A DNA stretch of 43,315 nt, taken from the NCBI GenBank assembly GCA_028285365.1, contig JANQPS010000158.1, forward strand, positions 1 through 43,315. Reading direction: 5' to 3'. Below the pieces are notes generated by a model. The model had not been told where the DNA came from. It searched no databases and saw only the letters and a list, made by a program, of their open reading frames with translations. This document shows, piece after piece, positions 375-33,836 of the stretch (within the stretch, counting starts at the first letter, position 1; each line of letters starts with the position of its first letter). This stretch comes from Thermoanaerobaculia bacterium. Lineage in GTDB: Bacteria; Acidobacteriota; Thermoanaerobaculia; Multivoradales; Multivoraceae. The position numbers and the translations under genes are program-made.

Positions 375-1481
375 TCAGTCGAGTCGATTCGATCGACTCG
401 AGTCCCGGCTCGCGGTTGCAGTCGCAAGCCTTCGTCCTTTCTCGACGGTGGTTGGCGTGAGATCCTCGGGCAGGAACTGCCGGTACCAGTCGCGCATACG
501 GCGGACGGGGCCATCGCCTGGGACGAGCTTGGGTGGATCGCGATAGATCTTCTTCTCCCAGATGCCGATGTCCTCTGCGAACTGCGACATCCAAGACCCG
601 ACAACGTACCAGACCACCAGCCGGGGTACGGAACGAGACGCAAACCACCTGAAACGAACGCTCTGTTCGAGTGGTGAGAGTGGCGTCAATGTCTGAAACA
701 TCAGGATCTGACCCAGCTTCGGAAGCTCGAAGCGGAAGGTTGCAACTCCTCCCGGCCCCAGGAACTCGATGGTCGCCTCCGCTGCACTCCAGGATCGCTC
801 CTTGCCGAAGACCTCCAGGACCGCGCTGTCTCTGAAGGTCGCCTTCCAGGGATCTGGGTCACCAGGAGACCAGCGCACCCGGTGTCGTATCTTCACCTTG
901 GGCACCGACCACTGTGTCCAGGGCAGCTTCATGCGCGAGTGCAACACGTCGAAATGCTGGAAGTCGACGCTGTTCTCGGCAAATTCGATGAGATGCATGG
1001 CGACCGTCCCAAGGTCCTTCCAACCTCTAGGAACCAGAGCGCCGCTGTCGAGCTCTTCGTAGTCGCCGAGCTCGTGTGGCTCGTCGGTTCGTCCTTCGGC
1101 ATTGTGAAAGACGAGCACCATGCCGTGCAGCTCGCGAACATGGATGCAGTCGGCTCTCACCGCGCGCGAGACCGGGCCTCGAGGGGTTGAGGTGACGGAG
1201 CCGTCCCTCCCGAATCGCCAATGATGAAAAGGACAAACGAGTGTGTCGTCTTCGACGGTGCCGTCACCGAGGTGGGCACCGAGGTGTGGGCAGTAGGCGT
1301 CTAGAGCGGTAACGGAGGGATTCGTCTTTCCCCGAAAGAGCACCATCTCCCGACCGAGGCAGGCAACGGTTCGAAGCTGGCCGGGCCGCAGCTCGTGGGA
1401 GTCGAGGACCCGATACCAACCGGTTGGATACGCGTGCGGATAGGTCGCGAGTCGTCGCTTGATGGCGTCGTCGTGGTGCAT
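375..1481 (-). CDS. Rieske [2Fe-2S] oxygenase, KshA / DAF-36 (cholesterol 7-desaturase)-like
   Basis: 368 aa ORF; Rieske motif CPHLGAHLGDGTVEDDTLVCPFHHW; mononuclear iron motif ENSVDFQHFDVLH; C-terminal 'DIGIWEKKIYRDPPKLVPGDGPVRRMRDWYRQF' resembling KshA family. Stops 7 bp before the SMT start. Confidence 0.88.
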   Translation of the reverse strand: MHHDDAIKRRLATYPHAYPTGWYRVLDSHELRPGQLRTVACLGREMVLFRGKTNPSVTALDAYCPHLGAHLGDGTVEDDTLVCPFHHWRFGRDGSVTSTPRGPVSRAVRADCIHVRELHGMVLVFHNAEGRTDEPHELGDYEELDSGALVPRGWKDLGTVAMHLIEFAENSVDFQHFDVLHSRMKLPWTQWSVPKVKIRHRVRWSPGDPDPWKATFRDSAVLEVFGKERSWSAAEATIEFLGPGGVATFRFELPKLGQILMFQTLTPLSPLEQSVRFRWFASRSVPRLVVWYVVGSWMSQFAEDIGIWEKKIYRDPPKLVPGDGPVRRMRDWYRQFLPEDLTPTTVEKGRRLATATASRDSSRSNRLD

Positions 1482-2696: not shown

Positions 2697-3503
2697 ATGT
2701 CGATTCAACTGACCAGGCTGAACGCCGATACGAGCTGGATCCTCGAGGTGGACGGGACGAGATTGCTGCTGGATCCCTGGCTCGAGGGACCAGCGATCGT
2801 GGGACTGCCGTGGATTCACACGGCTGACCTGGCGCAGGCGGCGGTGCCGATCGCAGAGGTGCCGTCGGTCGACGCGCTCGTGATTTCGCACCCGTTCCCC
2901 GATCACTGCAACGCTCCGACGTTGCGCAAGCTGCGCGGGGACTTTCCGGCCTACGCGCCGGCCGTAGCGAGGCGACGAGTCAAGCGGTTGGGTGGCTTCG
3001 ACGACGTGACGGTGCTCGGCAACTGCACGGGACGCGGTCAGGCGGTTCGGGTCGGCAACGTGTCGATCGCCTACTGTCGCGCCGGACACTGGTTCGATCC
3101 GACCCACAACGTTCTGGTCATTCGCGGGCTCGACTCCGGCTCCACGCTCGCGTATTGCCCTCATGGGGTGGAAGTCTCGGACAGGACGCGCGACGCGATG
3201 GAGGCCCAGATCGGAGATCGGCTCGATCTGCTGATGTGCAGCTTTACGCTTCTGGATCTGCCGATCTATCTGGGCGGCGTCGCAAATCTCGGTCAGCAGG
3301 CGGCGGTCGGCCTGGCGCAATACTTTTCGCCGGACTGGGTTCTGCCGACTCACGACGGTGACAAGCCCGACAGTGGCTTCATCTCCTGGGTGTCGAAGCT
3401 GGAGCGCTGCGTCGAGCCTGGAGAGCTCCTGTCTCAGCATGGAATCAGCTCGGCCATTCCGTCGATCGAAATTGGCAGGACCTGGTCGTCGGCCGACGCC
3501 TAG
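2697..3503 (+). CDS. Metallo-beta-lactamase-fold protein (atypical metal motif)
   Basis: 'SWILEVDGTRLLLDPWLEG...VDALVISHPFPDHCNAPTLRKL...AGHWFDPTHN...VLPTHDGD'; starts 2 bp after Rieske 2 stop. Confidence 0.75.
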   Translation: MSIQLTRLNADTSWILEVDGTRLLLDPWLEGPAIVGLPWIHTADLAQAAVPIAEVPSVDALVISHPFPDHCNAPTLRKLRGDFPAYAPAVARRRVKRLGGFDDVTVLGNCTGRGQAVRVGNVSIAYCRAGHWFDPTHNVLVIRGLDSGSTLAYCPHGVEVSDRTRDAMEAQIGDRLDLLMCSFTLLDLPIYLGGVANLGQQAAVGLAQYFSPDWVLPTHDGDKPDSGFISWVSKLERCVEPGELLSQHGISSAIPSIEIGRTWSSADA

Positions 3504-3507
3504 TCGT

Positions 3508-5682
3508 CTAGTCAGAACCTTCCAGCAGTTCGATCATCCGCGCGGCGGCGGTCTCACCGAGTCCCTCGCGAAGCTCCCGTGAGCCGCTCGTGAGCCGGTC
3601 GAAGCCACTCCGTTCGATCTTGATGACGCGAGTGGGGAGCGCTCCGCAAGCCCGGACTGTTGCCGTTCGCTCACGATTCTCCAGCAGGCCGATCTCCCCG
3701 AAGTAGTCGACGGCTTCGAGGCGCGCCAGGGGGACTTCGTTGCCGCTCGGATGTCGATTGGAGACCTCTACTTGACCACCGACCAGGAGATAGAAGGTGT
3801 CGGCGACATCTCCTTGGCGAATGATGGCCTCGCCGGCGCTGTACTCCTCGAGCTCCCACGAAACGTCGAGATCTTCGAGTGAGTTCGCGTTCAGGTCTGG
3901 CAGCATGGCGGCAAGGGTGCGAGTCAGAGAACGACGTCTCATGGTCGCTGCCAGTTCGCTGGTCGTCAGGTCGCAGTCGACGGCGAGCGTGTTGAAGGCG
4001 TTGCGGCCCAGGCGGAGTACTCTGAGGGATTCGCTGCTGGTGACCCGAACCGTCGCCGTGCGTGGGACACGCTGCAAGAGCCCGATCTCGCCGAAAGAGT
4101 CTCCGGGGCCGAGTCGAGCGAGTTGTTGCACCCGGCCGTCTCTATCCGCCAGAACGTTCACGTGCCCTCCACGGATGACGTAGAAGCTGTCGGCTTCGTC
4201 ACCCTGTCGGAAGACCTCGGTGTCGGGGGCAAAAGAGACCTCGGTCAGTTCCTGCTGAAGTCGGTCGCGAGCCTCAGGCTCGAGTCCTGCCAATGCGGTG
4301 TCGACTGCTGAGGTCGCCGGCCTTGGCGCCGTGATGGGCGACGGTTCTGTCTCTCGCGTGTGCAGCGAGACTTTGAACCGGGCCTCTGGAATGGGACGCG
4401 GAAAGCCTCGCACCACCAGTTTGCGTTGCGGGTCGGCGAGCCGGATGTCGCTTCCTCGGAGAAGACCCGCCATGGTGATCTTGGCGAGTGCAAGAGAGAG
4501 GCCGCGCGACATGCACGAATGACGTCCCAGGCCGAAGGGTGCGTAGGCGTGCGGTTGGAGATGCTCGTTGCGGCCTGCCATGCAGCGTTCGGGGTCGAAG
4601 CGGTCGGGGTTGGGATAGAGATCGGACATGAAGTGCGTGGCGGGACCCGCGATGTAGATCATCTGGCCTGCTTCGAAGTCGTACCCCTGAAACTCGAAGT
4701 CGTGGGCTATCACCCTCGGCAGGGCGATGGCCATCGGATAGCGACGGAGGGTTTCCAGCAACGTGGCACTCAGCAGTTCCATGCGTTTGAGGTCCATGAT
4801 GCTGGGCTCGCGGTCCGGCAGGTAGGCGTCGACCTCTTGTCGGAGACGGTCCGAGAGATCCTGGTCGCGGAGGACTTCGTAGAGGGTGAAGCTCACGTGG
4901 CGATAGAGATAGATGCCGGCGTTCTTGAGGGGCAACATGGCGAGCGCCAAGAGCGCCTTCTGGTCGAATCGATCAGGTTGGCTGCGCTCTAGCATGACCA
5001 GTGCATCGAGAACGTCTGGCGGCCTCGAGCCATCGGGCTGGGATTGCCTTCTCTCCTCGAGCACGTTCTCGAGAAACCCCGCGAAGCGGTTGCGAGCGCG
5101 CCTGACCGGCGGCAGATAGAGCGTCTTCTCAGGCAGGGCGTGGCCTACGGCGACGATTCCCATCATCGTGCCGTAGAGGCTCACGTCGGAAGCAAGGCGG
5201 CCGATGGTCTGGTTGGTCGTGCACGTCGATACGAGGTCGAAGACCAACTCCCGTAGAGCGGCCTCGACGTGCAGGTGTTGTCCCTCTCGCCAGTTGGCGA
5301 TCTGCAGCTCGATCCGCTCGAACAGCCTCGGGACAAAAGGCTCGATGGCGGATACCGAGAGTGCTGGCCCCAGCAGTCTCCGCAACTCGAGATGGCGGTC
5401 GCCGTCGTGACAGTTGGGAGCTGCGTCGCTCTCCATCTCGCGCACCATGCGCTGGTAGGTCCGTGAGTTGCTGAAGACTTCGTGGCCGCAACGCGAGAAG
5501 AACTGGTTGGCCTCGAGTCCAGCGAGGGTCAACATCTCCTGCCCTGGATAGCGGATGCGAAAGACCGGCCCGAGGCGGGCGTGTGCCTTGGCGAAAAAAC
5601 GGCAAGGGTCCCCGGTGGCCTGAAAGGAGTTGCCGAGAAGCGGCAGGCCGGGGTGGATCGGTGCGTCTTTTGAGTGCGGCAT
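3508..5682 (-). CDS. Cytochrome P450 fused to two C-terminal cyclic-nucleotide-binding (cNMP/CRP-like) domains
   Basis: 724 aa. P450 part: 'HPGLPLLGNSF', K-helix ETLRRYP, PDRFDPERC, heme loop PFGLGRHSCMSRG (Cys390). cNBD1: FRQGDEADSFYVIRGG...GDSFGEIGLLQRVPRTATVR. cNBD2: IIRQGDVADTFYLLVGG...YFGEIGLLENRERTATVR. Confidence 0.92.
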   Translation of the reverse strand: MPHSKDAPIHPGLPLLGNSFQATGDPCRFFAKAHARLGPVFRIRYPGQEMLTLAGLEANQFFSRCGHEVFSNSRTYQRMVREMESDAAPNCHDGDRHLELRRLLGPALSVSAIEPFVPRLFERIELQIANWREGQHLHVEAALRELVFDLVSTCTTNQTIGRLASDVSLYGTMMGIVAVGHALPEKTLYLPPVRRARNRFAGFLENVLEERRQSQPDGSRPPDVLDALVMLERSQPDRFDQKALLALAMLPLKNAGIYLYRHVSFTLYEVLRDQDLSDRLRQEVDAYLPDREPSIMDLKRMELLSATLLETLRRYPMAIALPRVIAHDFEFQGYDFEAGQMIYIAGPATHFMSDLYPNPDRFDPERCMAGRNEHLQPHAYAPFGLGRHSCMSRGLSLALAKITMAGLLRGSDIRLADPQRKLVVRGFPRPIPEARFKVSLHTRETEPSPITAPRPATSAVDTALAGLEPEARDRLQQELTEVSFAPDTEVFRQGDEADSFYVIRGGHVNVLADRDGRVQQLARLGPGDSFGEIGLLQRVPRTATVRVTSSESLRVLRLGRNAFNTLAVDCDLTTSELAATMRRRSLTRTLAAMLPDLNANSLEDLDVSWELEEYSAGEAIIRQGDVADTFYLLVGGQVEVSNRHPSGNEVPLARLEAVDYFGEIGLLENRERTATVRACGALPTRVIKIERSGFDRLTSGSRELREGLGETAAARMIELLEGSD

Positions 5683-31179: not shown

Positions 31180-32148
31180 TTGAGCGGCGACACCAAGCGG
31201 AGTGCAGCCGACCTCGGGCTGCCTTCGCGGATCCAGCTCATCGAGGTCGGGCCGCGGGACGGCTTCCAGATGGAAGATCGCTTCATTCCGACCGAGCTCA
31301 AGGTCGAAACGATCGAAAGTCTTGCGACCGCGGGCCTGCGTGAGATCGAAGCCGTTTCGTTCGTTCACCCGCGGGTGATCCCACAGATGCGCGACGCTGA
31401 CGACGTCATGGCGAAACTCTCGCGCACGAACGACACCATCTACTGGGCCCTCGTTCCGAACCTGAGAGGAGCCGAGCGAGCTCTCGCGGCGCAAGTCGAT
31501 GGCATCCACCAGGTGATCTGCTGTACCGAGACCTACAACCGGAAGAATGTGGGACTGTCGATCGACGAGTCGCTGGCTCAGCTCGGCGAAGTCGTCGAGC
31601 TGGCTCGCGCCGAAGCCGGGGGTCGCCGAGACGTTGTCACTGCGGTCACCATGGCGGCGACCTTCGGCTGTCCCTTCGAGGGCCAGGTCGATGATGATCG
31701 ACTGGTGGCACTGGCTCTGCGCCTTGCCGACAGCGGCGTCATGCAGCTCGGGCTCGCCGATTCTGCTGGACTCGGACATCCGGAGTTGGTCAGGAGAGTC
31801 ACAGCGAAGATTCGCCACGCTGTGCCGCAGGTGTCCTTGCGGATGCACCTGCATGACACCAGGGGCCTGGGCATCGCCAACGCCATGGCCGCGCTCGGCG
31901 AGGGTGTCACCCGCTTCGATACCTCCCTGGGAGGTCTTGGCGGCTGTCCGATCATGCGAGGAGCCAGCGGCAACATCCCGACTGAAGACTTCAACAACCT
32001 CTGCCTGGAAATGGGGCTCGAGACCGGAGTCTCGACCGAGGGAGTCGTCGCTGCTTCTACCAGGATCCAGTCGTTTCTAGAACGTCCCCTCGAAAGCAAG
32101 ATCCTGCGATCAGGTACCCGCCAGCAGCTGTACGCAGCCAATCGCTGA
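31180..32148 (+). CDS. Hydroxymethylglutaryl-CoA lyase-like (HMGL-like) protein, TTG start
   Basis: 'IQLIEVGPRDGFQMEDRFIPTELKVETIESLATAGLREIEAVSFVHP', 'GGLGGCPIMRGASGNIPTEDF'. Confidence 0.92.
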   Translation: MSGDTKRSAADLGLPSRIQLIEVGPRDGFQMEDRFIPTELKVETIESLATAGLREIEAVSFVHPRVIPQMRDADDVMAKLSRTNDTIYWALVPNLRGAERALAAQVDGIHQVICCTETYNRKNVGLSIDESLAQLGEVVELARAEAGGRRDVVTAVTMAATFGCPFEGQVDDDRLVALALRLADSGVMQLGLADSAGLGHPELVRRVTAKIRHAVPQVSLRMHLHDTRGLGIANAMAALGEGVTRFDTSLGGLGGCPIMRGASGNIPTEDFNNLCLEMGLETGVSTEGVVAASTRIQSFLERPLESKILRSGTRQQLYAANR

Positions 32149-32277: not shown

Positions 32278-33699
32278 TCAGAGGGTCTCCAAGATGACCG
32301 GCAAGCCTTTCTTGGGATGAGGTATCGGGATGGGTCTCATCACCTCCTGGTGACCAGGAAGCAGGCGCACGCGATAGCGCCTCAAGAACTCCAACAGAAA
32401 GGCCTTGACCTGGAGGATCGCGAAGTGCATGCCGATGCAGGTGTGGGCGCCCCCGCCGAAAGGGAAGTACGCGTGGGTGTGCTGCTTCTCCTCTGCCCGC
32501 TGCGTCGAGAACCGTTCAGGGTCGAATTCTCTGGGTGCGCTCCAGATGTCTTCGCGAAAGTGGGTGATCAGGGACACGACGGAGACGGCGCTGTTTCCCG
32601 GCACCTCCATTCCGGCGATCTCGCAGGGCTCGAGCGCCCTACGACCCATGAAGGGGACCGGCGGATAGAGCCGTAGCGCTTCTTTGAAGGCCAGTTCCAT
32701 CACCTTCAGGCGGTCGCGATCGTCGTATCCCAGAGGGCCCGAAGGAAGGGAACGGGCCTCTTCTCGCAGTTTCTCTTGCCAGTCCTGGTTCTGCGCAAGG
32801 GCCCAGACCAGGCTGGTCGCCGAACTCGTCGTGGTGTCGTGAGCTGCCATGAGGAGGAAGATCATGTGGTCGACGATCTCCCGGTCCGAATAGCGCTCGC
32901 CGTCTTCGGTCGTCGCCTGGCAGAACTGGGTGAACATGTCGGCTCCGTCTCCGGCGCGTCTGGAGTCGATCAAGTCGAAGAAAAACTGTTCGAGAAACCT
33001 ACGGCCCTCCATGCCTCGCCTGTAGGCGAGAAAGGGCACCTCGCGTTTGACCAGCGCAATCGAAGCCGCCACCGAATCAGAGAAGGCCTGGTTGATGCGG
33101 TCGGCCTGTGGGCCCAGCGGGACGCCGAGAAAGACCTCGGCCGCAAGGTCGAGTGTGAGCTTCTTGATCGACAGGTAGAAGCGCAGGGGCTCGCCATTGG
33201 TGGCCGCCGGTCTCCAGCCCTTGACGCCGCTTTCGATGAGCGGGTTCATGAGGTCGAGGTAGCCGCGCATCGCCTCGGCTCGAAATGCGGTTTGCATGAT
33301 GCGTCGGTGGGACCTGTGCTCTTCGAAGTCCCTCAGCATGAGGCCATTGGCGAACAACTCGCCGATCGCATGCTGCCATCCGAGGCGGTTCGAGAAGTTT
33401 CGATCGCGATCCATGAGCACCGTCTTGACGCCGTCCGGATCTCCGACGTGGAGAACCGGATGGCCGAAGACGCGGGCTCTGAACACGGAGCCGTGTCTCG
33501 CCGTCATCTCGCGCACGAAGTCGTGCGTCCTGAGGACAAACTGGAGTGTGTGGCCGACGAGTGGCGGTCCGTTGGTGCCGGGCAGGCTCGAGAGGTCCTG
33601 GCAGGGTGCCGAGCTCAGTGATGCGGCGAGCTCGGCTCGCGATGGCGCGTGTGCGGCGGACTGTGGACCTGACGCTGGATCGTTGGCTGGCAGGTTCAT
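32278..33699 (-). CDS. Cytochrome P450 (canonical)
   Basis: Start MNLPANDP; I-helix 'MAAHDTTTSSA', K-helix 'KEALRLYP', heme loop 'FPFGGGAHTCIGMHFA'. Confidence 0.94.
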   Translation of the reverse strand: MNLPANDPASGPQSAAHAPSRAELAASLSSAPCQDLSSLPGTNGPPLVGHTLQFVLRTHDFVREMTARHGSVFRARVFGHPVLHVGDPDGVKTVLMDRDRNFSNRLGWQHAIGELFANGLMLRDFEEHRSHRRIMQTAFRAEAMRGYLDLMNPLIESGVKGWRPAATNGEPLRFYLSIKKLTLDLAAEVFLGVPLGPQADRINQAFSDSVAASIALVKREVPFLAYRRGMEGRRFLEQFFFDLIDSRRAGDGADMFTQFCQATTEDGERYSDREIVDHMIFLLMAAHDTTTSSATSLVWALAQNQDWQEKLREEARSLPSGPLGYDDRDRLKVMELAFKEALRLYPPVPFMGRRALEPCEIAGMEVPGNSAVSVVSLITHFREDIWSAPREFDPERFSTQRAEEKQHTHAYFPFGGGAHTCIGMHFAILQVKAFLLEFLRRYRVRLLPGHQEVMRPIPIPHPKKGLPVILETL

Positions 33700-33836
33700 G
33701 TCGAAGCTCCTCGGGTGCTCGGCTCGACGCCGATCTGTCTGACGCGAACCTACGAATGCTAACGACAAGTCTGGCGGGCTGATTTCCCGAGCTCGAAGAA
33801 ACCCTGGTGGATCTCGCGAGTCCGGCGCTGGCTCGT

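Follow-up and report, generated by a model that had tools for sequence, protein, structure and literature searches.

The window, that is the whole analysed stretch of 43,315 nucleotides, contains a gene in which a cytochrome P450 domain is joined to two C-terminal cyclic-nucleotide-binding domains (cNBDs), and this gene lies beside genes for a metallo-beta-lactamase-fold (MBL-fold) protein and KshA-like Rieske oxygenases. The features are as follows.

375..1481, minus strand: second KshA-like Rieske oxygenase, divergent (Pfam); present in the window only, with a single Rieske gene at the related locus L039
1567..2694, plus strand: KshA-like Rieske oxygenase (Rieske and KshA_C in Pfam), 2 bases upstream of the MBL-fold gene
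2697..3503, plus strand: MBL-fold protein (Pfam), convergent with the fusion gene across a 4-base gap
3508..5682, minus strand: P450-cNBD-cNBD fusion gene, 724 aa, ATG start, uninterrupted ORF, with full-length homologues
3589..3849, minus strand: cyclic-nucleotide-binding domain B (PF00027, E 3.3e-20, above cut-off in the genome-wide scan)
3652..3702, minus strand: phosphate-binding cassette B, FGEIGLLENRERTATVR, with Glu663 and Arg672, aligned with PKA RI-alpha
3985..4239, minus strand: cyclic-nucleotide-binding domain A (PF00027, E 5.8e-20, above cut-off in the genome-wide scan)
4045..4095, minus strand: phosphate-binding cassette A, FGEIGLLQRVPRTATVR, with Glu532 and Arg541, aligned with PKA RI-alpha
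4297..4359, minus strand: variable Ala/Pro/Thr-rich linker, residues 442-462, gapped and unconserved in the alignment, pLDDT below 50
4456..5652, minus strand: cytochrome P450 domain, residues 11-409 (PF00067, E 5.3e-46)
4501..4536, minus strand: heme-binding loop FGLGRHSCMSRG, with the proximal Cys390 present
4744..4755, minus strand: ExxR motif E310-R313 (ETLR), kept in the homologues
4900..4923, minus strand: I-helix motif N254-A-G-I-Y-L-Y-R261, which replaces A/G-G-x-D/E-T in alignments

The plus-strand frame of 3508-5682 contains stops throughout, and the coding strand is the minus strand (5682 to 3508). A preliminary description of this DNA had proposed a single ORF of 724 aa made up of a P450 and two cNBDs; the ORF check and Pfam confirmed this with the same coordinates and assigned it to the minus strand, and the domain limits then given agree with Pfam and the genome-wide scan. 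Pfam placed residues 11-409 in the P450 superfamily (157.8 bits versus a curated cut-off of 22.8) and recognised two cNMP_binding stretches with 140.3 bits in total (cut-off 27.5), all three domains being above cut-off. A fused flavin or iron-sulfur redox partner of the CYP102 or CYP116B type is absent, as Pfam shows p450 and cNMP_binding only. The statement that neither an HTH nor a kinase follows also held in Pfam, which returned no HTH family after the cNBDs and no kinase domain in the protein; the CRP matches in NCBIfam extend over the cNBD alone, and the chain ends about 25 residues past domain B.

Other P450 genes were seen in the same DNA and genome. A second P450 in the window (32278-33768) is canonical with an AHDTT I-helix and lies beside an HMG-CoA-lyase-like gene (31180-32148). 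Two further open frames of the genome, with 1135 and 1141 aa (L001 and L002), start with a BM3-like P450 domain and are probably P450-reductase fusions.

A full-length homologue with 49% identity was identified in genome G080, which belongs to the same class but to a different family; its contig is identical to RHKY01000004.1 of 'Acidobacteria bacterium isolate ACB1' in GTDB. A third fusion, with 30% identity across the whole length and with p450 and two cNMP domains in Pfam, is encoded in the 6.47-Mb single-contig genome G438 of another Acidobacteriota family. The domain order is identical over the full length in these two independent genomes. It is thus extremely improbable that a chimeric assembly, a frameshift or a read-through of two genes created the apparent fusion: the source genome is a draft in 1394 contigs, which would leave room for such an error, but full-length homologues occur in two other genomes, one of them a single contig, and the junction contains no stop or shift, the two-gene reading raised in the preliminary description having failed on both counts. 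No in-frame ATG was found in residues 405-560 of the ORF, where weak GTG/TTG codons occur at 423, 424, 464, 508, 518 and 536; internal initiation near the P450/cNBD junction is unlikely.

The architecture is rare. Three fusions were found in about 646 Acidobacteriota genomes searched, none in 350 Chloroflexota genomes, none among 72,556 plasmids and none in IMG/VR. A GTDB scan with narrow peptide patterns, by which alone genomes of phyla besides these two were covered, returned the ACB1 fusion and four Chloroflexota P450 loci without cNBDs, and nothing else. With the I-helix columns left out, a tree of 42 P450 domains pairs the window protein with L010 as its sister (100/99) and puts L048 next to this pair; a clade of the three fusions was not rejected (p-AU 0.39), within the limits that long branches set. 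In a small cNBD tree the A domains of the three fusions form one group (80/83), and the corresponding clade of their B domains was not rejected (p-AU 0.30); this is consistent with one ancient fusion. Outside the fusions, the nearest P450s are stand-alone proteins from Chloroflexota and Acidobacteriota, together with a large group that has an N-terminal GPP34 domain.

Both cNBDs of the window protein belong to PF00027 and are intact at the ligand site, as had been read from the sequence beforehand. Cassettes FGEIGLLQRVPRTATVR and FGEIGLLENRERTATVR correspond to FGELALIYGTPRAATV and FGEIALLMNRPRAATV of PKA RI-alpha, and the alignment places the phosphate-contacting Arg and the ribose-contacting Glu in each of them; these two residues are kept in both cNBDs of 3/3 fusions. 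The residue after the cassette Arg is Thr in PKG and Ala in PKA; it is Thr in the window protein and Asn in the third homologue. As Thr (PKG-like) and not Ala (PKA-like) follows the Arg, the identity of the ligand is not assignable. Foldseek with a model of the cNBD tandem ranked PKA/PKG tandem cNBDs first, with a TM near 0.4. Entries from T. cruzi and T. brucei in the fold search are tandem cNBDs of PKA architecture that bind nucleosides, not cNMPs. The structure models, proposed earlier as a check, are silent on the packing of the two halves: the tandem forms two beta-rolls, each reasonable but with unreliable relative orientation, and mean pLDDT is 63.4 for the tandem and 55.6 for the whole protein, low values that stem from few usable sequences, so that no interdomain packing was read from them.

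The window genome has class III cyclase domains, with four PF00211 matches of which three are strong; one of the proteins, L051, combines FHA, GAF and cyclase domains and shows the expected catalytic motifs when read by eye. The genome also has 15 cNMP-domain matches, some of them fused to Ser/Thr kinases, FHA or ferredoxin-type proteins, and the cNBD is therefore a normal plug-in sensor in this genome. Two Ser/Thr kinase-like proteins (L089 and L093) carry the cNMP-binding domain at the C-terminus, a PKG-like arrangement with the sensor C-terminal, and in L097, on contig C805, a multi-cluster ferredoxin-like domain comes after two cNMP-binding domains. Because class III cyclase domains are present and other bacterial enzymes are gated by fused cNBDs, direct control of the P450 by cAMP or cGMP is a reasonable inference.

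The gene neighbourhood gives an indication of the substrate. On RHKY01000004.1 (L039) the Rieske, MBL-fold and fusion genes are again adjacent in a rearranged order, with 47%, 57% and 49% identity, respectively. The nearest solved structures of the Rieske protein are 3-ketosteroid 9-alpha-hydroxylases (KshA), and its motifs for the Rieske cluster and the mononuclear iron are conserved. The MBL-fold protein occurs in 2 of 396 Acidobacteriota genomes (E <= 1e-25), in both only beside the fusion, and in both cassettes its metal motif is HPFPDH, not HxHxDH. A function of this protein as cyclic-nucleotide phosphodiesterase is unsupported, since the metal motif is altered and no PDB relative was found at E 0.01. 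The Rieske and MBL neighbours are both absent from the G438 locus, where an aldo-keto reductase gene and an SDR-like gene take their place. On a Planktothrix plasmid, a related P450 (31%) lies amid genes for an SHC-type cyclase, a squalene/phytoene synthase, an SDR and an FAD-oxidoreductase. Together, the KshA-like Rieske and MBL neighbours and this triterpenoid-like cluster suggest a steroid- or triterpenoid-like substrate.

The triterpenoid-like cluster L087 on the Planktothrix agardhii plasmid NZ_LR882940.1 includes a P450 gene of 187 aa (locus 3364-3927) that resembles a shortened copy of the gene next to it (locus 3920-5278). In the window genome the one SQHop_cyclase_C match is an SHC with DCDDTA that adjoins an HpnH-like gene, and judged from this single SHC the organism probably makes hopanoids rather than sterols. 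Sterol biosynthesis was accordingly discarded as the pathway, given that this SHC is the single SQHop_cyclase_C match and no oxidosqualene cyclase was found in the genome.

The P450 half retains the heme-thiolate site and has lost a central catalytic feature. The heme loop reads FGLGRHSC, in agreement with FxxGxxxC, and the Cys and ExxR are conserved in 3/3 fusions. The classical O2-activating pair [AG]Gx[DE][TS] is absent from the I-helix of 3/3 fusions (NAGIYLYR, NAGIYLYR and ASIGYVGR); the window protein has KNAGIYLYRHVSF versus FFAGMDTVANTMGF or FIAGLDTVGSTCAF in stand-alone relatives, in which the acid-alcohol pair is kept. In the alignment the pair positions are taken by Ile257-Tyr258, and Tyr258 and Arg261 are common to all three fusions. 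A HMMER alignment to CYP120 shifted the motif by one residue and likewise showed no acid-alcohol pair. Residues 241-272 form one long helix in the AlphaFold2 model, at the low confidence of a model with mean pLDDT 55.6; the placement of Tyr258 relative to the heme is taken from the sequence alignment, the structure models being weak. With the pair gone, hydroxylation by the usual NAD(P)H/O2 cycle is most likely not the reaction of this domain, which is then no ordinary monooxygenase. The P450 chemistry named in the preliminary description is accordingly not to be read as O2-dependent hydroxylation, as the pair is missing in 3/3 fusions. CYP152 membership was ruled out, because Ile257-Tyr258 is found in place of Arg-Pro and the NCBIfam CypC score is 28 bits against a cut-off of 600.

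Some natural P450s without the Thr, such as P450eryF, still use O2. An O2-dependent monooxygenase under cAMP or cGMP control, with ordered water or substrate hydroxyls standing in for the acid-alcohol pair, would fit the intact Cys390 and ExxR, the canonical pair in close relatives and the general existence of substrate-assisted P450s. This reading is nevertheless quite unlikely, as 3/3 fusions have lost both members of the pair and have a bulky Tyr in place of the alcohol residue, which goes beyond the usual Thr-to-Ala exchange. Very unlikely is the reading that the P450 half acts mainly as a binding module, a substrate- or heme-sensing pseudoenzyme that together with the cNBDs forms a regulator. 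Loss of the catalytic pair and the altered HPFPDH motif of the neighbouring MBL-fold protein would speak for it, but pseudo-P450 activators typically lack the heme Cys and ExxR, which 3/3 fusions have, and real oxygenase genes adjoin the fusion.

An N-terminal GPP34 (GOLPH3-type) domain is present on many Acidobacteriota P450s from the clade to which the fusion belongs (L011, L012, L014, L020-L022, L024-L031, L038, L063, L066 and L068-L077; PF05719 was confirmed on L011 and the rest were read from sequence). The GPP34 domain has the GOLPH3 fold, which in eukaryotes binds phosphoinositide and membrane. These proteins share 25-32% identity with the fusion in the P450 part and, like it, have an added non-redox domain; they differ in that GPP34 is N-terminal and that the I-helix pair is D/E-T or H-T in most. 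Five of them (L024, L025, L026, L027 and L038) have an I-helix without the usual D/E-T pair (SVYVGD, AGHYTG), and loss of the normal pair is therefore not unique to the cNBD fusions. A literature search on GPP34-P450 fusions found no paper. Since cNBD and GPP34 fusions occur in one P450 clade, this clade seems to have repeatedly gained regulatory or localising domains.

This bears on the possibility that the tandem cNBD serves as a module for recruitment or oligomerisation, by which a cyclic nucleotide would bring the P450 to a partner, a membrane or a neighbouring enzyme and leave the heme site unchanged. Tethering of this kind is a real rival to allostery, because the linker between the halves is variable and the models are silent on their packing, and the GPP34 domains of sister P450s, with a membrane-binding fold in eukaryotes, indicate that the add-on domains of the clade may localise. 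It is rather unlikely all the same: the cyclic-nucleotide-contacting residues are kept in both cassettes of 3/3 homologues, which argues for ligand-dependent behaviour, and the data identify no partner.

The preferred explanation, to which we give slightly less than an even chance, is a cyclic-nucleotide-gated, non-classical heme-thiolate enzyme that would work alongside a Rieske oxygenase and whose substrate would be steroid- or triterpenoid-like. In this scheme, cAMP or cGMP would bind to one or both of the C-terminal tandem cNBDs, which are of the PKA/PKG regulatory kind, and binding would switch the activity or the availability and placement of the heme-thiolate P450-fold domain. The P450 half would probably catalyse a rearrangement, a dehydration-type or a peroxide-driven reaction, in which Tyr258 or Arg261 of the I-helix would cover part of the distal-pocket role, and the fusion would work in a pathway with the KshA-like Rieske oxygenase and the MBL-fold protein on such a compound. 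The variable and probably flexible linker speaks against this explanation, as it would fit a tether no less than allostery, and so do the nucleoside-binding tandems of PKA architecture, the P450s that use O2 without the Thr and the lack of Rieske and MBL neighbours at the G438 locus. The most specific version, in which cAMP or cGMP directly switches a non-monooxygenase heme-thiolate reaction in a Rieske-MBL-P450 pathway, would make the protein the first cyclic-nucleotide-gated P450 and seems somewhat unlikely.

Control of P450s is usually described at the level of expression, substrate and electron supply. If binding and gating hold true, a P450 that carries its own second-messenger sensor would allow the cell to gate heme-thiolate chemistry in seconds and would offer a natural template for ligand-switchable biocatalysts. 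Directly cNMP-regulated bacterial enzymes would then extend beyond acetyltransferases, and the fusion homologues, all of which have lost the O2-activation pair, would provide a concrete test case for P450s freed from monooxygenation.

The open-access literature contains no description of a P450-cNBD architecture that we could find, most subscription journals lying outside its scope, and within these limits the earlier statement that no characterised enzyme has this architecture agrees with it. The solved P450s nearest to the P450 half, by sequence or by fold, are CYP120, CYP51 and CYP204A3, and among P450s the fold search placed CYP204A3 first; these terpenoid- or sterol-type bacterial P450s (CYP120, CYP51 and CYP204) are, to our knowledge, not cNBD fusions. 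Both by sequence and by fold, the C-terminal half is matched best by the PKA/PKG regulatory tandems (for example PDB 1NE4, 1RGS, 5J3U and 4Z07), which likewise have two consecutive intact cNBDs. The fusion differs from them in its partner domain, a P450, and in that no kinase or inhibitor segment was found; with a tandem cNBD and no kinase domain in Pfam it is not a PKA/PKG regulatory subunit, and with no HTH after the cNBD it is not a CRP/FNR protein.

The CYP152 peroxygenases P450BSbeta and OleT also lack the acid-alcohol pair and keep the heme-thiolate (PMC5818669), but they have Arg-Pro at the pair site, whereas the fusion has Ile257-Tyr258 and Arg261 one turn later. In Family 2B encapsulins, a cNMP-binding domain is inserted into shell proteins that often have terpene cyclase cargo (PMC8346489); as in the fusion, a bacterial cNMP-binding domain sits in an unrelated protein, but this is a shell protein, not an enzyme, and has a single cNBD. 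According to the commentary PMC5861322, which cites Nambi et al. 2010, the mycobacterial lysine acetyltransferase Pat/Kat (Rv0998, MSMEG_5458) carries a fused cNBD and is directly activated by cAMP, and it is, like the fusion, a bacterial metabolic enzyme with a covalent cNBD. Pat is also the top partial NCBIfam match of the fusion, via the cNBD only. Unlike the fusion, with two cNBDs C-terminal to a P450, Pat/Kat has a GNAT catalytic domain and one N-terminal cNBD. As cNBD-gated enzymes and P450s without the pair are both already known, what appears to be new is the combination, a P450 whose fused partner is a signalling module and not a redox protein.
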